Shown here: in pieces, positions 13,125-25,076 of the stretch
Layout of the letters: every line of letters starts with the position of its first letter
Numbering within the stretch: the first letter of the stretch is position 1
Program-made: the position numbers and the translations under genes
The notes under the pieces: model-generated
The model's database searches: none
Seen by the model: only the letters and a program-made list of their open reading frames with translations
What the model was told of the DNA's origin: nothing
Assembly (NCBI GenBank): GCA_030447685.1
Contig: JAUJOK010000010.1
Coordinates: 9,244-73,243, forward strand
Reading direction: 5' to 3'
DNA: 64,000 bases
Source of the DNA: Armatimonadaceae bacterium
GTDB taxonomy: Bacteria; Armatimonadota; Armatimonadia; Armatimonadales; Armatimonadaceae

Positions 13125-15370
13125 ATGCACTTCCATAGCGCCATGATAAACAGCCTGTTGCCGATCCTTGTTGCCGCTGCGCCGTCCTCCGCCGGGCCGC
13201 AGACGCCGTCTGCTGCTGCACCCGCCACGGTCGCCGCCGTCACAGTGCCCAGGGTTCCCGCCGGGCATCCCCGCGTCTACGTTCGCGCGTCCGACCTCCC
13301 GGCGATCAAGGCCAAGCTCAGCCGGGACGAGTTCAAAGCGGCCTGGTCCCAGGTGCAGGCAGCGACCAGCCATCCCGATTACGGCCCCTTCGCCAGCGCC
13401 TTTGTCTACCTCGTCACGGGAGATAAGGCGGCGGGCCGCCGCGCTATCGAGAACGGATTGACGGCTCTGGCGAAGTCCGACGAGGGACGCACCGTCAGTC
13501 AGCCCATGCACTGGGCCGCCTGTGTCTATGATTGGTGCTACGATCTCCTGACCGATACCGAGAAGCAGTCCTTCATCAAGGAGTTCCAGCGCCTGGCCGC
13601 CTCGCACGGGCCTTATTATCCCGCCCGCCTCGACACCCATGCCGTGGTCGGCCATGATACCGAAGGCTGGCTGCTGACGGGGCAGCTTCCGATTGGCGTC
13701 GCCATTTATGACGAATCCCCGGTGATGTACGACGCGGCGGCGCGGCTCTTCGCCCGGAAATTCGTGCCGGTGCGAAACTTCTACTACCCGGCGCACGCCC
13801 ACCACCAGGGCGATTCTTACAGCTCTCGCATGGTCCACGATCTGCTCGCTTCCTGGCTCTTCCGCCGCATGGGGGCGGGCGATGTGCTCAGCCGCGAGCA
13901 GCGGTACGTCCCCTACGAGACCATCTATAACCTGCGCCCCGATGGCCGCCAGTTCCGCCACGGCGACACGTATGACGAGGGAGGCCGCGCCGCCACCCGC
14001 CTTCTGATCCAGATGCTGGCCGCCGCCTACTACGACGACCCCTATATGCTCTGGATGGCCGATTCCGCCGACCTCTTCAATCGACCCACGCCCCTGGAGC
14101 GCATCTTCGAACTGCTGTTCCGCAGGCCCAGCGCTCCCCAGCGGCCCATCGGCGAACTGCCGCTGACGAAGTTCTTCGGGCCGCCCATCGGCACGATGAT
14201 CGCCCGCACCGGCTGGGAGAGGGGGTTAGACTCCCGCGCCGCTGTCGTGCGGATGCATATCGGCGGGAACTTCTTCGGCAACCATCAGCGCAAGGACTGG
14301 GGTAATTTCCAGGTCTACTACCGGGGGCCGCTCGCTATCTCCAGCGGCATCTACGAAGGGGCGCAGAGCGGGTATAACTCCGACCACTGGCGCGACTATT
14401 ACCACCAGACCGTCGCGCACAACAGCCTGCTGATCTTCGACCCGACCGAAAAATGGTCTACCACGGCGAACCCGCCGCGAACGACGGCGGCCAGCGCTGG
14501 CCCGTCGGTGGGGCCGACCATCCCGTCGATCTGGAGACGCTGACAAACGCGGACCACCGCTACGGTAAAGTCACCGCCCACGCCTTCGGCCCCGACGCGG
14601 CGAAGCCCGCCTACAGCTATATCGCCGGGGACATCACCCACGCCTACACCAAGAAGGTCTCGTCGGTGACACGGGCAATGGTAACCTGGAACACGGGCGA
14701 TACGAGGTACCCCGCCGTGCTCGTCGTCTTCGACCGCGTTGTCAGCGCGAATCCTGCCTTTAAGAAGACGTGGCTGCTGCACACCCTTCAGGAACCCCAG
14801 GTGCAGGGCAGGGCGATTACGGCAATGCGCGACACGGACGGCTATGGCGGCAAGCTCGTCGCTACGAGCCTGCTGCCCGAACGAGCGACACTAACGAAGA
14901 TCGGCGGCCCCGGTAAGGACTACTGGGTCGAGAGCGCGCAAAGGAACTATGCGACCACAAAGGCGGGCGCGGAAGGCGGCGCGTGGCGTATCGAGGTCTC
15001 CCCGGCGGCTTCCGCGCGGGAAGATGTTTTTCTCCACACGCTAACCGTCATGGACAGCACGACCACAGAGGCTCCCCCGGTGGGGAAGGTCGAGGGGCAG
15101 GGCATGGTGGGCGCGCGCGTCCTGGATCGGGTGGCGCTCTTCTCGCGCTCCGGCAGCCTGCAAAGCCGTGTCGGCTTCCGCATTGATGGCAGCGGGAAGC
15201 TGCGCTTCCTCGTCTGTGACCTACAGCCCGGTTCGTGGATAGTCACGCGCAATGGCGCGAGGATCGCCGGGGCCTTCACCGCCACTGCCGACGCAAAGTG
15301 CCTCTATTTTGAGGGAGAGGCGGGCGACTATACGCTGGCACGCGCGGGCACTAACACTCGACAAAGATAG
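13125..15370 (+). CDS. Heparinase II/III-like protein, one internal frameshift
   Basis: The N-terminal part reads 13125 to ~14455, the C-terminal part continues in another frame to 15370; together about 748 residues. A signal-like start (INSLLPILVAAAP) precedes an alpha-toroid domain with HPRVYVRASDL, QPMHWAACVYDWCYD and HTEGW-like motifs, then a beta-sheet domain with MHIGGNFFGNHQRKDWG and TVAHNSLLIFDP. The frame breaks at a run of five A (14449-14453); one extra A restores TEKMVYHGEPAANDGGQ. It is homologous along its length to the gene at 44.4-46.4 kb. The fold belongs to polysaccharide lyases of uronic-acid glycans (PL8/12/15/21 style); activity and substrate are not proven. AGGAG lies 11 nt before the ATG. 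Confidence 0.8.
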
Positions 15371-15419
15371 CGCAGAAACTCACTGCCCGCAAAATAAAGG
15401 TTATTAAGGAGGCAGCATC

Positions 15420-16292
15420 ATGGCACGTTACGGTATCGGCGCAAGCCTGGGCGGATGGCGACCCTTTCCTGCCGATAACCCGTGGAACCAGGATATCTCG
15501 GGCCTGCCAGTAGACCCGCGCTCCGATGTTCTGGTTGCGAGTATAGGGCTGGACGGAAGTCTGCATCCGGACTTCGGAACCGTCTGGCAGGGAGTGCCTA
15601 ACGGCATTCCGTATGTGGTTGTTCGAGGGAAGCAGCCACGTGTTCCTGTCCGGTTCGAATACGCGGATGAAAGCGACCCCGGCCCGTACCCCATTCCGCC
15701 CAACGCGCCCATCGAAGGTGGGCCGCAGGGAAAAGGCGACCGGCATATCCTGGCGGTGGACCGAGACGACAAGCGGCTGTATGAACTTTTCTCCGCCTAT
15801 CCCGACGGCAAGGGCTGGCGCGCCGGGTCGGGCGCGATCTTCAACCTTGCGTCCAATCGGCTGCGCCCGGCGGGCTGGACATCGGCGGATGCCGCCGGTC
15901 TGCCGATATTTCCCGGCCTGGTGCGCTACGACGAAGTGATGGAGCAAAAGGCCATCCGGCACGCGCTGCGCTTTACCTGCCGCCGCACGCGCCGCGCCTA
16001 CGTTTCCCCCGCCCGGCACTTCGCCAGCCGCAGCGCAGACCCGAACCTGCCGCCGATGGGAATGCGCGTCCGGCTCCGAAAAGATTTCGACATGCGTCCG
16101 TTTCCGCCTGTTGCGCGGGTGATTCTGACGGCGCTCCAGAAGTACGGTATGCTGCTCGCCGATAACGGCGGCGACTGGTACCTGAGCGGCGCGCCGGATT
16201 CTCGCTGGGATAACGAGGCAATCGCGACGCTCAAACGCGTGAAGGGGCGCGACTTCGAGGTGGTGCGAATGGGCCGACTGGTGACGGGCTGA
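15420..16292 (+). CDS. Unknown protein with FPADNPWNQDI motif
   Basis: 290 residues. The strong ribosome site AAGGAGG (15406-15412) fixes the ATG. No signal peptide or membrane segment. Visible features: FPADNPWNQDISGLPVDPRS near the start, LHPDFGTVW, GIPYVVV, an aromatic RRAYVSPARHFASR stretch, MGMRVRLRKDFDM, and the ending QKYGMLLADNGGDWYLSG. I recall similar NPWN...HPDFG proteins annotated only as hypothetical in soil bacteria, so no function is offered. It follows the heparinase-like gene by 50 nt on the same strand and precedes the DUF4091 gene, which has its own promoter. Confidence 0.75.
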   Translation: MARYGIGASLGGWRPFPADNPWNQDISGLPVDPRSDVLVASIGLDGSLHPDFGTVWQGVPNGIPYVVVRGKQPRVPVRFEYADESDPGPYPIPPNAPIEGGPQGKGDRHILAVDRDDKRLYELFSAYPDGKGWRAGSGAIFNLASNRLRPAGWTSADAAGLPIFPGLVRYDEVMEQKAIRHALRFTCRRTRRAYVSPARHFASRSADPNLPPMGMRVRLRKDFDMRPFPPVARVILTALQKYGMLLADNGGDWYLSGAPDSRWDNEAIATLKRVKGRDFEVVRMGRLVTG

Positions 16293-16331
16293 CCACTGCC
16301 GGATATTCGCCTGCCGACACACAGCGCGCGC

Positions 16332-16360
16332 TTGACAGGGCAGCCGGTTTCGCGTACACT
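16332..16360 (+). promoter_or_regulatory. Sigma-70-type promoter for the DUF4091 gene
   Basis: TTGACA (16332-16337), a 17-nt spacer and TACACT (16355-16360) form a near-consensus promoter about 95 nt upstream of the ATG at 16456. It lies in the only substantial gap (16293-16455) between two same-strand genes. No operator palindrome was recognised in the leader. Confidence 0.7.
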
Positions 16361-16455
16361 GCGCGAAATCAAGTAAGCTGCCGTCCGGCGGAAAGTACCG
16401 CAGCTATTACGGACGCGGTTTGAGATACCATCGAATCTACCGAGGAGGCTGGCTC

Positions 16456-18258
16456 ATGACACCGTATCTGTTCCTGCTTCTTGTCCCGATGGCCGGGGTC
16501 CTGGCCCTGACGATACTGTCCGGGAGCGCTTCGGCCAGCCCCGGCGTGTCGGATGTGTGGGCGGTGAACGACGGGGAAAAGGTGCGGCGCGATGACCTCG
16601 ACAACCCGAACCGGCAGAAGAACTCCGTCTGGGACGGCAAACGCATCTCCCTCTTCGGCGCGCGCAATGAGATCGTCGCCTTTCAAATCATCCTACGCTC
16701 CGGCCCCGGTGGCGCGCACGAGGTGGACGTGGCGCTGGAAGATCTGGTTGACCGCGCCAGCGGCAAACGGCTTGTTGCCGTCCCCGAACGCAGCGGCAGT
16801 GATCCCACCGACACGCGCGGCGGTCAAATAGAGCGCTTTACCCAGCACTATCTGCACATCGAAAAGCCGTCTCCACCGGGCTGGTTCTACCATCCCGAAG
16901 CACGCCCGAAGGAGGTGACGGGATGGGTGCCTGACGCGCTCGTTCCTTTCCGGGCGACAGTTGGTCGGGGGGGCGGTCCGTTCGCCATCGGGCCGAACCG
17001 GAACCAGGGGGTGTGGTTCGACATTTATATCCCCGCTGCCCAGACGCCGCCCGGCACCTACGAAGGCAATGTCCGCATACGTGAAGGGGGAAAGACGGTC
17101 CGGGAGATACCGGTCGCGCTTCGCGTCTTCGACTTCGCCCTGCCGGACGAGAACCACTTCCGCGCCATGATCTTCTTTGACGAAGCGGCGGTGCCCCGGC
17201 GTCACGGCTCCTCGGAGTCGGACCTTGTCGCGCGTTACCACCGCCTCGCCCACCGGCATCGTGTCGAGTTCACCCATGCGTACGGCCCTGATGCGCCCCC
17301 GGCCCACCGCGACCTTCTTTCCGGCAAGGCGTTCACTCCGGCGCGCGGGTATGTCGGGCCGGGCCAGAACATCGGCTACTCCATTGTGCCCGCGAGTTTC
17401 TACGGGATTCGCGAGCCGTGGCAGGGAGATAGGGCCTGGAAGACGGCGGACTCCTTCATGGGCTGGGTGAACAGCGTCAAGCCGGACGCCATCACGTTTC
17501 TATATGTCACGGACGAACCCCCGCCGGATCGCTTCCCATTCATCAAGTCTATCGGCGATCTGCACCACGCTAATCCCGGACCGGGGAAGAAACTCCCGAT
17601 GTTCCTGACGCACGCCCCCGATGCGCGCCTGGGCGAGTCCATCGACATCTGGTGTACCGTGACCAACCAATACGACACGGAAAAAGCGAAGGCGCAGAGA
17701 GCTACGGGACGCCGCTGGTGGGTGTACAACGGCTACCGCCCGGCAGCCGGGACGCAGCTTACCGATGCCCCGGCGGTCGACTGCCGTGTGACGCCGTGGG
17801 CCTGCTGGAAGTACGGCGTCGAGTTGTGGTTCTACTGGTTCGCGAACCAGTGGCGTCATAACAGCCAGGCCCCGCGCGGCGAACAGAACGTGTGGGTCGA
17901 TCCCGTTACCTTCGGCCACGACGGTGAGTATAACGGGGACGGCGTGCTGATCTATCCGGGCCAGGACGCCGTCTTTCCCGATCAGGACCGGGGCGTCGCC
18001 GGCCCTATCGCCTCGATTCGTCTGAAGAACCTGCGCCGGGGCATGCAGGACTACGAATACCTCTGGCTGGCCGAACAGCGGGGACTCGGGAAGGAGGCGC
18101 GCGCAGCCGCCGACGCATGCGTTCCCAGGGCCTTCACGGACGCCAAGGGGGACGTTGCGTGGAGTGTGCGCGGGAGCGACTGGGACGCGCAGCGGCGCAT
18201 CCTGGCGGAGCGCATCGCCCGGAAGCGAACGGCGAAGAAACCGGGCGGCACCCGATGA
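16456..18258 (+). CDS. Secreted DUF4091 protein (GH123-like fold)
   Basis: 600 residues. ATG 16456 is preferred over 16420 because GAGGAGG lies 7 nt upstream and the product then begins with a signal peptide (YLFLLLVPMAGVLALTILSG). A beta domain (30-230) precedes a TIM-barrel-like region, with YVTDEPPPDRFPF offering an acidic pair like the Asp-Glu of GH123. The end carries the DUF4091 signature GPIASIRLKNLRRGMQDYEY. GH123 members cleave beta-N-acetylgalactosaminides; most DUF4091 proteins are uncharacterised. It ends 4 nt before the creatininase fusion, implying one transcript from the promoter at 16332. Confidence 0.85.
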   Translation: MTPYLFLLLVPMAGVLALTILSGSASASPGVSDVWAVNDGEKVRRDDLDNPNRQKNSVWDGKRISLFGARNEIVAFQIILRSGPGGAHEVDVALEDLVDRASGKRLVAVPERSGSDPTDTRGGQIERFTQHYLHIEKPSPPGWFYHPEARPKEVTGWVPDALVPFRATVGRGGGPFAIGPNRNQGVWFDIYIPAAQTPPGTYEGNVRIREGGKTVREIPVALRVFDFALPDENHFRAMIFFDEAAVPRRHGSSESDLVARYHRLAHRHRVEFTHAYGPDAPPAHRDLLSGKAFTPARGYVGPGQNIGYSIVPASFYGIREPWQGDRAWKTADSFMGWVNSVKPDAITFLYVTDEPPPDRFPFIKSIGDLHHANPGPGKKLPMFLTHAPDARLGESIDIWCTVTNQYDTEKAKAQRATGRRWWVYNGYRPAAGTQLTDAPAVDCRVTPWACWKYGVELWFYWFANQWRHNSQAPRGEQNVWVDPVTFGHDGEYNGDGVLIYPGQDAVFPDQDRGVAGPIASIRLKNLRRGMQDYEYLWLAEQRGLGKEARAAADACVPRAFTDAKGDVAWSVRGSDWDAQRRILAERIARKRTAKKPGGTR

Positions 18259-18262
18259 GGAC

Positions 18263-19867
18263 ATGATCGACGGTTATAGCACGACGAACGACTGGCAGCG
18301 CCACACCGGCGGCGTGTGCGTGCTGCCGGTCGGCTCGTTTGAGCAGCACGGCGCGCATCTGCCCCTCGCCACCGACATCCTGTGCGCGGAATTCTTCGCT
18401 GAAATGCTGGCGCAGGAGTTACCCGCTGCCCTGCTCCCGGCGCTGCCCTTCGGGACCTGCATGGAGCACAGCGGCTTTCGCGGGTCCGTTTCCCTGCGGC
18501 CCGAGACCCTGATGCAGATCGTTCGGGATGTCGCGGACGAGATGGAGCGGCAGCAGTTCCGGGCGCTGGTCATCGTCAACGGCCACGGCGGGAACTTCGC
18601 CCTGGGGCCGGTGGTGCGCGACATCAACCGCCGGGACCGGCCCCTCAAACTGCTGCTTGTGGATTGGTGGGAACAGGCGCAGCGGGGCGCCGTCCTGGAG
18701 GGCGGCGACCGGGGACTGGATTTTCACGCCGGGGAGATGGAGACATCGGTTGTCCTGGCGCTGCGCCCCGACCTGGTCCGTCCCGAATCCGCCGACCGGC
18801 AGGAGGTTCCGCCGGAGCCGTTCCCGCTGGTGCAGCGCGACCTGAACAGTTTCGGCATCGGCCATTTCAGCCCCGGCGGCGTGGTCGGCTATCCCTCGTT
18901 GGCTTCGGCGCAAAAGGGGCAGGCAATTATCCGGTCAGTCCGGGAACGGCTGATTCCGTATGTGCAGGACCGTCTTCAGCGCCTGACCGAGCAGCCGCGC
19001 TATGCCGGGCGGGGCGGCATCGCCGTGCGGGCAATGGAGCCGGGAGACATTGCGGACGGGATGCGCTTAAAGACCCTGGCAGGCTGGAATCAGACCGAAG
19101 AGGACTGGCGCTTATTCCTGGAGGGGCCATCGCCCGCCGCCTTCGTGGCGGTGCAGGAGGGCAGCGTCGTCGGCAGCGTGGCCGCCATCCGCTACGGCGA
19201 CGATTTGGCCTGGATCGGTATGATGCTGGTCGACCCGGCCTTCCGCCGCATGGGCATCGGTCGCCTGCTTTTCGAACACGCCGTCGCGAGCGTAACCTCT
19301 AATCATGTCATCAAGCTGGACGCCACCCCCACGGGCAAGGAGCTGTACGATAGAATGGGCTTTGTCGATGAGAGCCGTCTTCAGCGCCTTACCCATGTCT
19401 GCCTGCCTGTATTACCCGAGCCTGCGGGCGACGACGGCCTGCGCGTTGTTACCGAGGAGGTCTGGTCAGGCATCGAGGCGCTGGACCGGGCCGTCTTCGG
19501 CGCTGACCGTAGGCGCGTTCTGCGGGCGCTGGCCGCGCAGGACCCGCCGGGGGCGTTCTGCCTGGTCCGCGCGGAGCGGGTCGAGGGCTTCTGCTTCGGC
19601 AGGCGCGGCACGAACTATCATCAGATCGGCCCGGTCGTCGCCGGTTGCACTGAAGACGCCATCCTCCTGGCGACGGCGGCGATGCGCCGCCTGGGGGGAC
19701 GCCCCGCCGTAATAGACGTGCCGGATGCCCAGCCGGAATTCCTCCGCTGGCTGACCGATCTGGGTTTTGCCCGCCAGCGGCCCTTCATTCGGATGGTGCG
19801 CGCTCCGGCTCCCGCGTCCCCTCCTCAAAATCGTCTCTTCGCGATTTGCGGGCCGGAGTTCGGGTAA
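18263..19867 (+). CDS. Creatininase-like amidohydrolase fused to a two-part GNAT acetyltransferase
   Basis: 534 residues from ATG 18263, 4 nt after the DUF4091 stop. Residues 1-245 are a creatininase/formamide-hydrolase domain with metal motifs PVGSFEQHGAHLPLATD (Glu27, His29, Asp38), VNGHGGN (105-111) and FHAGEMETS (Glu158). Residues 252-385 are a GNAT domain with the acetyl-CoA loop VDPAFRRMGIGRLLFEHA (323-340). Residues 395-515 resemble the degenerate C-terminal GNAT half (Acetyltransf_18 type). Creatininase homologues are usually ~250 residues and stand alone, so the fusion is unusual. The frame is intact through the junction, so it is not an assembly artefact of two genes. Combined function, perhaps amide hydrolysis plus amine acetylation, is speculation. 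Confidence 0.85.
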   Translation: MIDGYSTTNDWQRHTGGVCVLPVGSFEQHGAHLPLATDILCAEFFAEMLAQELPAALLPALPFGTCMEHSGFRGSVSLRPETLMQIVRDVADEMERQQFRALVIVNGHGGNFALGPVVRDINRRDRPLKLLLVDWWEQAQRGAVLEGGDRGLDFHAGEMETSVVLALRPDLVRPESADRQEVPPEPFPLVQRDLNSFGIGHFSPGGVVGYPSLASAQKGQAIIRSVRERLIPYVQDRLQRLTEQPRYAGRGGIAVRAMEPGDIADGMRLKTLAGWNQTEEDWRLFLEGPSPAAFVAVQEGSVVGSVAAIRYGDDLAWIGMMLVDPAFRRMGIGRLLFEHAVASVTSNHVIKLDATPTGKELYDRMGFVDESRLQRLTHVCLPVLPEPAGDDGLRVVTEEVWSGIEALDRAVFGADRRRVLRALAAQDPPGAFCLVRAERVEGFCFGRRGTNYHQIGPVVAGCTEDAILLATAAMRRLGGRPAVIDVPDAQPEFLRWLTDLGFARQRPFIRMVRAPAPASPPQNRLFAICGPEFG

Positions 19868-19918
19868 GGATGCACCAACCGCACAAATCACGCAAAGAAA
19901 AGAGCAGGAGCAAGCAGC

Positions 19919-20926
19919 ATGCAGTCGCGTAATATCGTGTTCGCCGGGGAAAATCAGGTCGAGGTGCGCGAAGAGCCGGTTCGGGAACCGGGGCCGGGTG
20001 AGGCGCTGGTGCAGGCGCACAAGACACTTATCAGCACGGGAACGGAAGGCATCATCCTGAGCCGACTGTACGAGAGCGGTACGCACTGGGACGATTGGGT
20101 GAGGTTCCCCTTCACGCCCGGATACAGCTTCGCAGGCCGGGTGATAGCTGTGGGCAGCGATGTCGGCGAAGTGCGGGTGGGCGACCGGGTGGCGGCGCGG
20201 GTCAATCACCGGGAGTTCGCGGTGGTTAAAACGGCGCAGTTGCACCCTATTCCGGAAAAGGTGAGTGATGAGGAAGCCGCCTGGCTGGGGCTGGCGAGCA
20301 TCGTGCAGAACGGTGTGCGCCGCGCACCGCACGAGATGGGCGATAAAGTCGTCGTTGTCGGGGTGGGATTGCTGGGGCAGCTTGTGGTTCAGTACGTCCG
20401 CCTGATGGGTGCGCGGCAGATTATTGTCATCGATCCGGCGTCAAAGCGCGTGGAGATGGCCTGCGCGCATGGCGCTACCGACGCATTGACCATGCCCGTC
20501 GAGGCCGCGCGCGAGAAGGTGCTGGAGCTAACGGGCGGAGGTGCCGATGTGGTCTACGATGCGACCGGCAACGCCGCCGTGCTGGAGAATGCTCTGCCCC
20601 TGGTCCGGCGGTTGGGCTGCCTGCTTCTGCTCGGGGACACAGGGACGCCCTCGCGGCAGCGGCTGACGCGCGATGTGGTGCCGCGCGGCCTTCGTATCAT
20701 CGGCGCGCACGACAACAATCCGCCCGCCGCCACATCGGAGCACGCGCGATGGAGCCATCGGGAGATGATCCAGCTCTTCTTCACTTATGTGATGCGAGGC
20801 GACATGCGCGTGGCCGACCTGGTGACACACCGGTACGCCCCGAAGGACGCTCCGGAAGCCTATCGTCTGCTCCGCGAGGAGCGGTCGGAGGCGATGGGCG
20901 TTCTCTTCGACTGGCTCCCGGTATAG
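19919..20926 (+). CDS. Zinc-free MDR-family dehydrogenase
   Basis: 335 residues, AGGAG (19906-19910) before the ATG. This is a medium-chain dehydrogenase/reductase: GroES-like N-domain to about residue 135, then Rossmann nucleotide-binding domain with VVVGVGLLGQLVVQ and IDPASKRVEMA. The usual catalytic zinc Cys (CGTD) is replaced by ISTGTEG, and the four structural-zinc cysteines are missing, as in BchC-like and other STGTE-type MDR proteins. Probably an NAD(P)-dependent oxidoreductase of a sugar or polyol. It follows the creatininase fusion by 51 nt on the same strand. Confidence 0.85.
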   Translation: MQSRNIVFAGENQVEVREEPVREPGPGEALVQAHKTLISTGTEGIILSRLYESGTHWDDWVRFPFTPGYSFAGRVIAVGSDVGEVRVGDRVAARVNHREFAVVKTAQLHPIPEKVSDEEAAWLGLASIVQNGVRRAPHEMGDKVVVVGVGLLGQLVVQYVRLMGARQIIVIDPASKRVEMACAHGATDALTMPVEAAREKVLELTGGGADVVYDATGNAAVLENALPLVRRLGCLLLLGDTGTPSRQRLTRDVVPRGLRIIGAHDNNPPAATSEHARWSHREMIQLFFTYVMRGDMRVADLVTHRYAPKDAPEAYRLLREERSEAMGVLFDWLPV

Positions 20927-20940
20927 TGCTTGTTCTTACC

Positions 20941-21090
20941 CCGGAGTGTGGACACTCCGGTCTGTGGGGCAGCTACGCTGCCAACCGTCCTGCGGACGGG
21001 ATACGCGTTCTGTTCTCCCGTCCGCAGGATGGTTGGCCCGCAGGCGATGGTCGCCCGAAGGCCCCATAGCCCGGCCTGTTCATAGGCCGG
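20941..21090 (+). promoter_or_regulatory. Highly structured intergenic region upstream of nagB
   Basis: Five nested or consecutive hairpins fill the gap between the MDR gene and nagB: an 8-bp stem 20941-20960; an outer stem CTGTGGGGC (20962-20970) with GCCCCATAG (21061-21069); inside it a 4-bp stem 20970-20980, a 21-bp stem (20981-21001 with 21016-21036, one G-U, 14-nt loop) and a 5-bp stem 21043-21055; then a 7-bp stem 21071-21090. The nagB ribosome site follows at 21102. It could be a terminator/processing structure, an RNA regulator or a mobile repeat. I do not recognise a known riboswitch. Confidence 0.6.
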
Positions 21091-21112
21091 AAGAACGGAA
21101 TAGGAGGAAACC

Positions 21113-21856
21113 ATGCAGGTAGTGATCAGCGAAACCAAGCGGGAACTGGGGCGGCAAGCGGCGCAGAACGGGGCCGAAAAAATCCGACGGACGCTTGCCG
21201 AGCGCGGGACCGCGAACATCGTGGTGGCGACCGGAGCCTCGCAGTTCGAGATGCTGGACGAATTGGTGGCAACGGAACAGATCGACTGGAGCCGTGTGAC
21301 GGGCTTCCATCTCGACGAGTACGTGGGCCTGCCGATGACGCACCCGGCGTCATTCCGCAAGTACCTGAAGGAGCGGTTTGTCGGCAGGCTGCCACAGCCG
21401 CTCGCCGCCTTTCACTACATAGACGGCGAAGGCGATGTCGCGGCGGAGTGCCACAGGCTCGGCCAGATCATCAGCGCCCATCCCATTGATGTGGCTTTCG
21501 TCGGAATCGGGGAGAACGGACACCTGGCGTTCAACGACCCGCCCGCAGACTTCGAGACGGAGGTTCCCTACCTGGTGGTAAATCTGGACGAAGCCTGCCG
21601 CCGCCAGCAGTTCGGCGAGGGCTGGTTCCCGAGTATGGAAGCCGTCCCCGCTCAGGCGATCTCCATGTCGATCCGCCAGATACTGAAGTCGAAGGCGATT
21701 GTTTGCAGCGTGCCGGACGCCCGTAAGGCCGAGGCCGTTCGGGCGTCGCTGGAGGGTCAGGTAACGCCCGGCGTTCCCGCCTCCATCCTACAGCGGCACG
21801 AGGATACGACGGTCTATCTGGATTCCGCGTCGGCGGCGCTGCTCAGCAGCCGCTGA
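21113..21856 (+). CDS. nagB: Glucosamine-6-phosphate deaminase-like protein
   Basis: 247 residues, AGGAGG (21102-21107) 5 nt before ATG. NagB motifs are clear: [12 protein letters not shown] (phosphate loop), [13 protein letters not shown] containing the catalytic Asp, [18 protein letters not shown], and the C-terminal [11 protein letters not shown]. The enzyme converts glucosamine-6-phosphate to fructose-6-phosphate and ammonia. It faces nagA tail to tail with 1 nt between the stops (21856/21858). It could instead be a 6-phosphogluconolactonase-like relative, but the LDEY and [12 protein letters not shown] motifs favour NagB. Confidence 0.88.
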
Positions 21857-21857
21857 C

Positions 21858-22784
21858 CTATCCGGCGGGTTCGAGCGAGCGGCGCGGGTTCGTTACCGTC
21901 AGGAGCAGGGCGTCCTCGCGGGACAGGCCGACGCGCTCCACCAGATTGGCGACGCTCTGGCGCATGGTCACGACCGCCCCGATAAGATGCGAACCGTCGG
22001 GCGCGCGGGCGACCAGGTCCGGCCCGATCACCAGGTCCCATCGCCCCAGCGTGTACCGCCCCGGCCCCAGGCTGGCCGGTGCTATCGCGTCGGTCACGAC
22101 CACGCAGCGGTCAAGACCCGCCGCCCGCAGGTAGTTTCCCAGAGCAGGGAAGGCGACGTGCGCGCCGTCGGCGATGAAGCAGAGCCACAGCCGGTCGCAG
22201 AGGCTCAGCGCCTTCTGGATGATGTTATCATGGCGGTGCATCTGCATCGGGCAGCCGTTGCCCAGATGGGTGAACATCGTCAGCCCGGCGTCTATAGCCG
22301 CCTCCAGTTCGTCCAGGCTCGGGTTGCAGTGCCCGGCGGAGACGGTGATTCCCCGTTCCGCCACTATCCGCGTCACCTTCAGGCCCGCATCGCGCTCAGG
22401 CGCGAGCGTCACCAGGCGCGCCAGCCCACCGGCGGCGTCTAAGAGGCGCTCCATCGCGTCCGGTTCTGCGGGCCGGATGGCGTCCTCCGGGTGCGCGCCG
22501 CGATAGCCTGCGGTTTCGTTCAGGAACGGCCCCTCGATGTGGATGCCCGTGATAAGCTTTTGCGCTAATGGATCCTGCTCCCGCAGCGCCACCAGGTTCT
22601 TCAGGCGATGGACCATCTTATCGACGTGCTCGGTCACGATGGTAGCCAGGATTCCGGCGACGCCGTCCGCGCTCAGCCGCTCGCAGACGGCGTGCAGATC
22701 GTCCGCCGTCAAAGCGTCCTGGTTGAAATCTATACCGGCGTAGCCATTGACCTGTAAATCGAAAAAGCCGCTCTCGCTGTCCAT
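21858..22784 (-). CDS. nagA: N-acetylglucosamine-6-phosphate deacetylase-like amidohydrolase
   Basis: 308 residues, shorter than classical NagA (about 380) because the N-terminal beta-sandwich strands are nearly absent. Motifs in order: FFDLQVNGYAGIDFN, GIHIEGPFLNETAGYRGAH, VSAGHCNPS, MFTHLGNGCPMQMHRHDN (family norm THLFNAM), FIADGAHV and VVTDAIAP with the catalytic Asp. It deacetylates GlcNAc-6-phosphate to feed NagB. The Gly-Cys-Pro-Met-Gln loop instead of Phe-Asn-Ala-Met suggests a divergent subfamily, so a different acetyl-amino sugar is possible. It starts 12 nt after the stop of the Gfo/Idh gene and is co-transcribed with it. Confidence 0.87.
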   Translation of the reverse strand: MDSESGFFDLQVNGYAGIDFNQDALTADDLHAVCERLSADGVAGILATIVTEHVDKMVHRLKNLVALREQDPLAQKLITGIHIEGPFLNETAGYRGAHPEDAIRPAEPDAMERLLDAAGGLARLVTLAPERDAGLKVTRIVAERGITVSAGHCNPSLDELEAAIDAGLTMFTHLGNGCPMQMHRHDNIIQKALSLCDRLWLCFIADGAHVAFPALGNYLRAAGLDRCVVVTDAIAPASLGPGRYTLGRWDLVIGPDLVARAPDGSHLIGAVVTMRQSVANLVERVGLSREDALLLTVTNPRRSLEPAG

Positions 22785-22796
22785 CGTTCGTCTCCG

Positions 22797-23960
22797 TTAT
22801 CCGTCGAAGCCGTTGAGGGAAACCACTTCGTTATTGTCGCGGCTGCGGATGGCGGCGTGGCAAAGCACGCTGGCGCGTAAGCCGTCTTCCGCTGCGGCGT
22901 TCTCGGGTTTCTCGTTCGTGAGAATACGCTCCGCGAAGTGGTCGAGCGCTGGAAGCCAGCCTTTATTCACCATGTAGTTCCACAGCGGCCCGGTCTGGTT
23001 CAGGTAGCGCCGCATCTCTTGCGCGTCCGGTGCGGGTTCCCCCGATAGCGCGTCCGCCGCCTCCGCTTCGTTTCGCAGCGCCCAGCCCATGCGCCGAAGC
23101 GCAAACAGGGCCGCCGCCCCTTCCGCCTCAAACAGGTACTTGTGCGTGAACTCGCGGTCCGGGTGCGTGTGCCCGGCGAAACGCAGTACCGGCTCCCGGT
23201 GCGCGAAACCGAATGTCCGCAGCTCCACGAAATCCTCGACCGTGACCGCGCCTTTCTCCGTAATCACCTCCAGCCGTTCCTTCGGCAGGTCCATTGTCGC
23301 GTAACCGCTGCTCATGATGGACGCGACGCAGCCGGAACGGAACTTCAGCGTAATGATCTCGTCGTCCGGTCGCGACTCGACACAATAAACGGAGGCTGCC
23401 TCGGAGCCGGTGAGCCACCGCAAAAGGTCGAAGATATGGCAGACCTCATGGATAACACGCACCCTCGGCGGGTAGCTCTTACCCCAGCGCCAGTAGTCGT
23501 CGCTGAGCCGGTAGTGGATGTTCCACGGGCCTCCCTCCGCCGCGACGATCTCCTTCGCCTTGCGATACGCGGGCGCGAAGCGCCGGTTGAAGCCGACCGC
23601 AACGAACCGGCCCGTTTCTTTTTGCGCCGCCACCACGGCAGCACACTCGTCGCTGGTGCTCGCAAGCGGTTTCTCCACATAGACATGCTTTCCCGCCTGA
23701 AGCGCTTCAATGGTCAGAGACGCCTGCATGTCTTCGCGGGTCGCGACGACCACGGCCTGTATCTCCGGGTCGGACAGCAGGCTCCGGTAGTCGGTGGTGG
23801 CGTGGGGGATAGCATACTGCCGCTGCGCCTGCTGGAGCGCATCCGGGCGCACATCGCACACGGACTTCAGCGTTACGTGCGGCGCGCGTGTAAGGTTGGG
23901 CAGGTGCTGCGACTGCGCGATTCCGCCCGCGCCGATCAAGCCGAAAACCACTTGCTGCAT
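22797..23960 (-). CDS. Gfo/Idh/MocA family oxidoreductase
   Basis: 387 residues, AAAGGAA before the ATG. The NAD(P)-binding motif GLIGAGGIAQSQH is at residues 7-19 and the conserved EKPLAST near residue 95, with the C-terminal beta-sheet domain IHEVCHIFDLLRWLTG. The family oxidises or epimerises sugars and polyols, or acts on nucleotide sugars. It is transcribed with nagA, which suggests a role in processing an amino sugar. It diverges from the second Gfo/Idh gene at 24075; the 114-nt gap should contain both promoters. Confidence 0.9.
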   Translation of the reverse strand: MQQVVFGLIGAGGIAQSQHLPNLTRAPHVTLKSVCDVRPDALQQAQRQYAIPHATTDYRSLLSDPEIQAVVVATREDMQASLTIEALQAGKHVYVEKPLASTSDECAAVVAAQKETGRFVAVGFNRRFAPAYRKAKEIVAAEGGPWNIHYRLSDDYWRWGKSYPPRVRVIHEVCHIFDLLRWLTGSEAASVYCVESRPDDEIITLKFRSGCVASIMSSGYATMDLPKERLEVITEKGAVTVEDFVELRTFGFAHREPVLRFAGHTHPDREFTHKYLFEAEGAAALFALRRMGWALRNEAEAADALSGEPAPDAQEMRRYLNQTGPLWNYMVNKGWLPALDHFAERILTNEKPENAAAEDGLRASVLCHAAIRSRDNNEVVSLNGFDG

Positions 23961-24074
23961 GTCAAGTTCCTTTCGGGAAGGCTGTTCGCCGGGAGGAGGT
24001 ATCTATCCTGCGAAAAAGCAAATAAAGCGGTGATATGGCGTGACGAATCCGTGGAGAAAGGAAGAAGCAAAGCG

Positions 24075-25076
24075 ATGGCAGCGCCGCGCGCAGTTCGGAT
24101 CGGTCTTATCGGCACGGGAGGCATCGGGCAGGCGCACATTCGCCGACTGGTGCAGATTCCAGAGGCGCATATCGTCGCTCTGTGCGACATTGTTGAGGAA
24201 AAGGCGCGGACGGTCGCCGCGCCGCTGGACGTGCCGGTTTATACGGACGGCGCGAAGATGATCGCCGAGGCCGCGATGGACGCGCTATATATCTGCGTAC
24301 CACCGGATCAGCACGGCGAGATGGAGATACAGGCCGCGCAAAAAGGTCTGCATCTCTTTGTCGAGAAGCCCGTCAACCTGTACCTGGACCGGGGAATGCG
24401 GGCCTGGCAGGCGATAAAAGCGGCGGGTGTGATGACACAATCCGGCTACAGCTTCCGCTATCTGGCCCCGAGCCTGCAGCTAAAGCAGTTCCTGGAAGAT
24501 AAGCCGGTCGGCACGGCGAGCGCCGTCCGCTGGGGCGGCATTCCCCGCACGCCCTGGTGGCGCAAATACGACGAATCCGGCGGCCAGTTGGTGGAGATGA
24601 CCACCCACCAGGTAGACCTGCTGCGCTGGGTGATGGGCGAAGTGGAAGCGGTATCGGCCAGCTACTCCTTTCACCGCCTTTTCGCGGATCAGCCCGACAT
24701 CACCGTGCCGGATACGCAGGCGGCACTCCTGCACTTCCGGTCCGGCGCGTCCGCCGTCGTCACCACTTCCTGCGCCCTGGGCAGGGGATTCCGCAGCGAA
24801 ATGGAGTTCGTCATCCGGGACGCGCGCGTCGTCTGGAAGGCGGACGGCGTAAAGGTCGAGCCGGACGATGCCTATACGCTTCCACCCCCGACGGACGAAA
24901 CGCCGAGCATTGACGCCGCGTTCGTTCGCGCCGTCGCCAGCCAGAACCCGGTCTTTCTGCGCAGCCCGTATGACGATGCGCTTCGCTCCGCCGCCGTGAC
25001 ACTGGCCGCCAACCTTTCAGCGGAAAACGGGGGGCGTCTGGTGCGGATGGACGAGCTTTTAGGGGGCCTGGCGTAA
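24075..25076 (+). CDS. Gfo/Idh/MocA family oxidoreductase
   Basis: 333 residues. ATG 24075 is chosen because it directly precedes the nucleotide-binding strand VRIGLIGTGGIGQAH and has AAGGAAG upstream; an upstream extension of the same frame is only the shadow of the divergent gene. VEKPVNL holds the conserved Lys. The C-terminal domain shows QLVEMTTHQVDLLRWVMG with the catalytic His candidate. It is followed 24 nt later by a xylose-isomerase-like protein, the frequent pair in inositol and uncommon-sugar pathways. Confidence 0.9.
   Translation: MAAPRAVRIGLIGTGGIGQAHIRRLVQIPEAHIVALCDIVEEKARTVAAPLDVPVYTDGAKMIAEAAMDALYICVPPDQHGEMEIQAAQKGLHLFVEKPVNLYLDRGMRAWQAIKAAGVMTQSGYSFRYLAPSLQLKQFLEDKPVGTASAVRWGGIPRTPWWRKYDESGGQLVEMTTHQVDLLRWVMGEVEAVSASYSFHRLFADQPDITVPDTQAALLHFRSGASAVVTTSCALGRGFRSEMEFVIRDARVVWKADGVKVEPDDAYTLPPPTDETPSIDAAFVRAVASQNPVFLRSPYDDALRSAAVTLAANLSAENGGRLVRMDELLGGLA

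Follow-up and report, generated by a model that had tools for sequence, protein, structure and literature searches.

The window, as we call the whole 64,000-nucleotide stretch of Armatimonadaceae DNA analysed here, carries a gene (18263..19867, + strand) whose 534-residue product joins a creatininase-family hydrolase to a tandem GNAT acetyltransferase. The assignment is based on the open frame, Pfam matches and homologous fusions. In total the joint protein was found in 16 genomes of three phyla, with the other 15 sharing 33-79% identity with the window protein; it is not a one-off. Both parts belong to known families. As far as tested, what is undescribed is that they are joined, that the fusion extends over three phyla, that a conserved linker connects them, and that the Cohnella group probably paired the two families independently. 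The original prediction, which knew of no protein of this make-up, agrees with our search of the open-licence PubMed Central literature, where no description of a creatininase-family protein with a tandem GNAT was found in titles and the beginnings of abstracts. That three phyla have retained a joint protein strongly suggests action of the two families on one metabolite or in one pathway, a suggestion reinforced by what is probably an independent pairing in the Cohnella group. The fusion offers a direct way to seek the substrates of creatininase-like hydrolases and of tandem GNATs with Acetyltransf_18, large families with few characterised members.

Domain make-up and predicted fold

The frame at 18263-19867 (+ strand) comprises 534 open codons and a single, terminal stop. 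The draft genome from which the window comes has 116 contigs; the fusion is present in one copy, and creatininase-like matches lie on two other contigs. The start codon has weak support from the other fusions: in all 14 that are uncut at this end, a start codon, chosen by script as the nearest one, lies no more than 5 residues from the position of the window's ATG. A signal-like N-terminus was not seen by eye, and the protein is probably cytosolic.

The N-terminal metallohydrolase domain (residues 15-231; 18305..18955, + strand) matches the Pfam family Creatininase (PF02633) with an E-value of 2.6e-62 and 210.8 bits against a cut-off of 31.3, which places it in the superfamily. All of its metal-site residues, E27, H29, D38, H108, H155 and E160, whose roles are presumed, are there. 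A conserved linker (residues 237-256; 18971..19030, + strand) with the motif R-[LIF]-x(2,3)-[LI]-x(3,5)-Y-x-G-x-G leads to the first, putatively catalytic GNAT half (residues 255-385; 19025..19417, + strand), assigned by Pfam (PF00583/PF13508) and alignment. PF00583 matches residues 279-367 (E 1e-11, 45.5 bits, cut-off 20.7), and all matches to Acetyltransf_1, 7 and 10 lie within residues 279-374 and above the curated cut-offs. The sequence R328-R-M-G-I-G333 fits the pattern R/Q-x-x-G-x-G/A, which we take to be the consensus of the acetyl-CoA loop. The second GNAT half (residues 404-525; 19472..19837, + strand) corresponds to Acetyltransf_18 (PF18014; E 8e-20, 71.2 bits, cut-off 22.7).

Both GNAT profiles thus occur in order and each above its cut-off, as in tandem GNATs with Acetyltransf_18. 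By eye, the second half has no acetyl-CoA loop; in alignments of the stand-alone proteins it likewise appears, by eye, to have none. The earlier reading of tandem GNAT halves was right about the two GNAT parts, but these form one pre-existing module of Acetyltransf_1 and Acetyltransf_18 that is found on its own in many bacteria. Each part has plausible catalytic residues, and the suggestion that both may be active stands as a prediction from sequence.

The AlphaFold2 model of the window protein has a mean pLDDT of 86.6. Model residues 1-243 superimpose on creatininase 1q3k_A with a VIA-align Z of 25.3 (rmsd 2.6 Å, 233 residues aligned). The two creatininase crystal structures 1q3k and 1j2t (Z 25.0-25.3 against the hydrolase part) have the same fold over the whole hydrolase domain, to which the fusion adds its GNAT extension. 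Model residues 252-533 resemble the tandem GNAT 3ddd (Z 29.3, rmsd 2.2 Å, 263 aligned). The orientation of the domains was left unfixed by two AlphaFold2 models, with pTM values of 0.60 (32 rows) and 0.58 (18 rows). The predicted intact joint polypeptide is borne out by the frame, the Pfam and fold matches and the 15 other genomes, in which recurrence of the joint frame excludes chance.

Distribution, origin and conservation

In whole-protein searches the fusion was found in at least 4 of 291 Armatimonadota genomes (G000, G003, G081 and, truncated where its contig stops, G232), at least 4 of 284 Planctomycetota genomes and at least 8 of 278 Verrucomicrobiota genomes (one cut by a contig start). 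These counts are lower bounds, because scoring was limited to a few top candidates in each genome, at strict E-values. Under the same limits, no fusion was detected in 347 Acidobacteriota, 394 Cohnella-family and 267 Bacteroidota genomes. When the 16 fusions were scanned with Pfam together with two stand-alone hydrolases nested among them, 18 proteins matched Creatininase, 16 Acetyltransf_1 and 15 Acetyltransf_18; the 16 positive for Acetyltransf_1 are taken as the fusions, and the one lacking Acetyltransf_18 is taken as G232, which is cut before this domain. A longer fusion with a 594-residue frame in G272 was discarded, its upstream part looking spurious by eye. One genome, G1052, holds an intact fusion alongside a truncated copy devoid of the GNAT part.

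Trees were calculated from two sets of rows. The first omitted the duplicates L084, L085 and L005 and, for the GNAT tree, 38 of the 45 loci L037-L081. The second omitted the duplicates L083, L084, L085 and L005, the broken gene L104, the long-branched hydrolases L002, L017, L086, L088 and L096 and, for the GNAT tree, 41 of the 45 loci L037-L081, and it kept L001, L019, L006 and L089 as fusion rows. A branch of the hydrolase tree with a support of 99/98 has on one side all 16 fusions together with the two stand-alone hydrolases (L175:6065-6817 and L176:6117-6851). The two stand-alone proteins fall inside the fusion clade, and a clade of fusions only is rejected (p-AU 3e-90). As both are nested in this clade and terminate in remnants of the linker, they have lost their GNAT part. 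A single origin of the fusions is compatible with the GNAT tree (p-AU 0.33).

Adjacent hydrolase and GNAT genes were found in four genomes of the Cohnella family; in G101, G318 and G323 they overlap by 4 nt, and in G301 frame shifts disrupt the hydrolase gene as well as the GNAT gene. The GNAT tree sets these pairs apart from the fusions, rejecting one clade of both with a p-AU of 0.0118 (0.0014 with the first, smaller set), and the pairing therefore probably arose separately, the Cohnella-type pair having taken up its GNAT on its own. The hydrolase tree is undecided on this point, a joint clade with the Cohnella pairs, nested stand-alone hydrolases included, being unrejected (p-AU 0.33), and other rows could change the picture. 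Two further loci have a creatininase-like and a stand-alone GNAT gene arranged tail to tail, directly in G265 (L096:632-2379) and with one gene in between in L046:7956-10536.

Residues of the metal site and of the acetyl-CoA loop are retained in most of the 16 fusions. Among the fusions that have a residue at the respective place, E27 and H29 are each present in 15 of 15, D38 and H108 each in 14 of 15; H155 occurs in 16 and E160 in 15 of the 16 fusions. In the acetyl-CoA loop, R328 is kept in 15/16 and G331 in 13/16. There are exceptions: G1494 carries D38V and H108D and has also lost the loop, while in G1559 and G1337 an arginine replaces G331. Compared with its near relative G081, G232 (L089:1498-2559) has a 42-nt in-frame gap that removes the metal-binding motif around H108; this gap may be real or a fault of the assembly.

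The linker is the most conserved part of the protein. Its motif is found in 16/16 fusions, compared with 0/34 rows of unfused creatininases and 0/83 rows of unfused GNATs; these rows include repeated copies of the Cohnella pairs, and L175 and L176 were left out. Mean identity among the fusions is 57% in the linker versus 45%, 41% and 35% in the three domains. Between the window protein and its 79% identical relative in G003, dN/dS is 0.17 for the hydrolase, 0.11 for the linker, 0.17 for the first and 0.29 for the second GNAT half; for G081 versus G232 the values are 0.20 for the hydrolase, 0.06 for the linker and 0.11 for the first GNAT half. Judged from these two pairs, and for the second GNAT half from one of them, all parts of the fusion are under purifying selection.

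Known relatives and a two-step proposal

The hydrolase part scores below the cut-offs of all four creatininase-type NCBIfam families. Its best curated match by score, MftE (TIGR03964; residues 18-236), reaches 126.6 bits against a cut-off of 172; MftE is not known to be fused to a GNAT. Creatininase proper (TIGR04448) gives 107.3 bits against 235, the 3-dehydro-scyllo-inosose hydrolase IolN (NF041098; residues 18-236 aligned) 66.3 against 245 and ArfB 34.3 against 180. IolN is of the same superfamily as the fusion hydrolase and reportedly works together with IolM, an alcohol dehydrogenase. A gene of this kind lies next to the fusion in the window; its product scores 76.5 with a cut-off of 450 for IolM. 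MftE, the mycofactocin peptidase, is homologous to creatininase but acts on a peptide, which it cleaves (PMC10885120).

In the alignment, the window hydrolase has counterparts of four creatininase residues. In creatininase numbering, these are E34, H36, D45 and H120. Creatininase E122, presumably a ligand of the second metal, aligns with G110 of the window protein; a glycine is found in 14 of the 15 fusions with a residue at this place and an asparagine in G1494. Creatininase mutants with E122Q occur among PDB titles. Since it scores below the creatininase-type cut-offs and E122 is missing, the domain is classed at superfamily level only: on its sequence it is a member of the creatininase superfamily and of none of the curated subfamilies tested. 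The earlier label creatininase-type accordingly holds for the superfamily but not for creatininase proper, for which the replacement of E122 by G110 and the TIGR04448 score speak against membership.

For the GNAT part, the best match by far is 3ddd, a tandem GNAT from Pyrococcus horikoshii (E 1.3e-33 over profile positions 36-284 of 286, among the best 60 of 153 matches); it is a chain of 288 residues without a hydrolase domain, and its PDB title states no function. The next match spanning most of the GNAT part is 4my0 from Kribbella (E 2e-5, among the same best 60 of 153). The glucosamine N-acetyltransferase GlmA (PDB 5kf1) has a tandem GNAT fold like that of the fusion (Foldseek E 8.7e-12), but its sequence matches are local only (E 7.8e-7, among the best 60 of 153) and its 328-residue chain has no hydrolase domain.

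By analogy, the best precedent for the two-step logic of the fusion is RmNag, a fungal GH3 beta-N-acetylglucosaminidase (PDB 4zm6). Its fused tandem GNAT acetylates glucosamine units, the hydrolase then cuts the product, and consecutive reactions on a single substrate were demonstrated (PMC4680927). In both proteins an N-terminal hydrolase is followed by a C-terminal tandem GNAT, of which one half works in RmNag (PMC4680927) and is predicted to do so in the fusion. RmNag differs from the fusion in its unrelated hydrolase and in a local, weak GNAT match (E 9.3e-5 over 56 profile positions, among the best 60 of 153).

With evenly balanced confidence, we propose that the fusion carries out two consecutive steps, hydrolysis and acetylation, on one amine or amide metabolite. 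As we infer the two activities, the creatininase-superfamily metal hydrolase would act on a small metabolite by breaking an amide or a related C-N bond, and the first GNAT half would bind acetyl-CoA and acetylate a primary amine at an acceptor site shaped by the second half. For the order of steps on a shared substrate, either the hydrolase would release an amine for capping by the GNAT, or an acyl-amine made by the GNAT would be accepted by the hydrolase. In a bolder version, which we regard as improbable, the protein would represent a new class of acyl-exchange enzymes: the hydrolase would remove an acyl group or open a cyclic amide and the GNAT would put an acetyl group in its place, with the linker guiding the free amine between the sites. 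Unusual N-acylated or cyclic amines derived from glycans or the cell wall would thereby enter the ordinary N-acetyl pathway.

A less probable but serious alternative to consecutive steps is that two enzymes of one pathway were joined for joint expression or dosage only, acting on different intermediates and passing on no product. The unfixed domain orientation in the models and the abundance of lone tandem GNATs are in line with it, as are the fissions of L175 and L176 within the fusion clade, which show that a hydrolase can persist after losing its GNAT. Mere co-expression does not, however, explain a linker that is more conserved than the domains, and by the GNAT tree the pairing of hydrolase and GNAT arose twice.

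It is unlikely that one part serves as a scaffold or switch, the GNAT as a sensor of acetyl-CoA that controls the hydrolase or the creatininase part merely as a means to cluster GNAT units. Creatininase relatives form hexamers, and the decayed hydrolase residues in G1494 and G232 and loops in G1494, G1559 and G1337 would fit this explanation, but most of the 16 fusions retain both sets of residues, and in the pairs compared purifying selection acts on either part. An artefact of assembly or gene calling that fused two neighbouring genes, for which the draft state of the window genome and the separate adjacent genes in the Cohnella family could be cited, is extremely improbable, as the joint frame recurs without an internal stop in 15 further genomes (two cut at a contig edge) and the fusions have a linker motif of their own.

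Gene neighbourhood and candidate substrates

For the proposed consecutive steps, the substrate would most likely arise from the breakdown of glycans or the cell wall; candidates are an amino sugar, a small peptide and an amino-acid amide. Directly upstream of the fusion lies a gene for a GH123-like protein (16456..18258, + strand; GH123_cat E 1.9e-11, start codon picked by eye), the stop of which is 4 nt before the ATG of the fusion; by eye, a close relative of this gene is also upstream of the fusion in L019. Downstream follow a zinc-type alcohol dehydrogenase family protein (19919..20926, + strand; Pfam) and, by profile matches, a NagB-like protein of the glucosamine-6-phosphate deaminase family (21113..21856, + strand), which scores under the NagB cut-offs, and a NagA-like deacetylase (21858..22784, - strand). 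The latter, also under its cut-off, has 308 residues and matches from profile position 56, suggesting that the deacetylase is shortened or that its reading frame starts further upstream. A scan of 14500-24200 for promoters and terminators gave no more hits than shuffled sequences.

Neighbours were scanned with Pfam for a chosen part, namely 8 genes in the window including the fusion, 20 at the other fusions and 1 of 10 in a further set. Across the fusion loci they include GH123-like, NagB-like and NagA-like proteins, GH38, mannose-6-phosphate isomerase, a ROK kinase, class II aldolase, DUF4962/heparinase-like proteins and BNR. A carbohydrate-type gene is present within ~4 kb at 8/16 loci, or 10/16 if Gfo/Idh/MocA is counted, among chosen neighbours only, without a control and in phyla that may be rich in such genes; the count takes in the GH123-like relative in L019 that was identified by eye. 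No neighbour common to all 16 fusions was seen. A narrower assignment of the substrate to the amino sugars is a more tentative guess.

Other loci suggest amino acids or cell-wall peptides. In G1114 (L165:4321-8876) the fusion is beside DUF1611, a VanX-type dipeptidase and a gene with a beta-lactamase fold, which hints at the metabolism of D-amino acids or cell-wall peptides, and in G1314 an aminotransferase is a neighbour. In G081 (L124:9583-10425) and G232 (L141:5162-5965) the fusion is preceded by a gene that appears by eye to be cysteine-hydrolase-like; the L124 copy had no Pfam match at E 0.01.

A link of the fusion to a DHDPS-like gene was considered but not borne out, with such a gene in 8 of 16 fusion genomes versus 4 of 13 picked genomes without the fusion (Fisher p 0.45). 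In Bacteroidota, Pseudomonadota and Acidobacteriota, a DHDPS-like gene adjoins or is close to the stand-alone tandem GNAT in L023:5774-8843, L024:4234-8843, L031:6888-11543, L037:6848-9839, L033, L035 and L077, and in L023, L024, L031 and L037 there is also an NAD-epimerase-like gene. These genes were assigned by Pfam in L023 (PF00701, E 4e-8; PF01370, E 8e-5) and by eye in the other loci; four members of stand-alone GNAT loci that were scanned received no NCBIfam name above cut-off. The Acidobacteriota locus L025 has a row of four genes that echoes the window, encoding a stand-alone GNAT, a NagB-like protein, a sodium symporter and a GH123-like protein. In three genomes of one Armatimonadota family (L127:5188-7564, L128 and L129), the stand-alone GNAT adjoins members of a single gene family, identified by Pfam in L127 as an MTTB-type methyltransferase.
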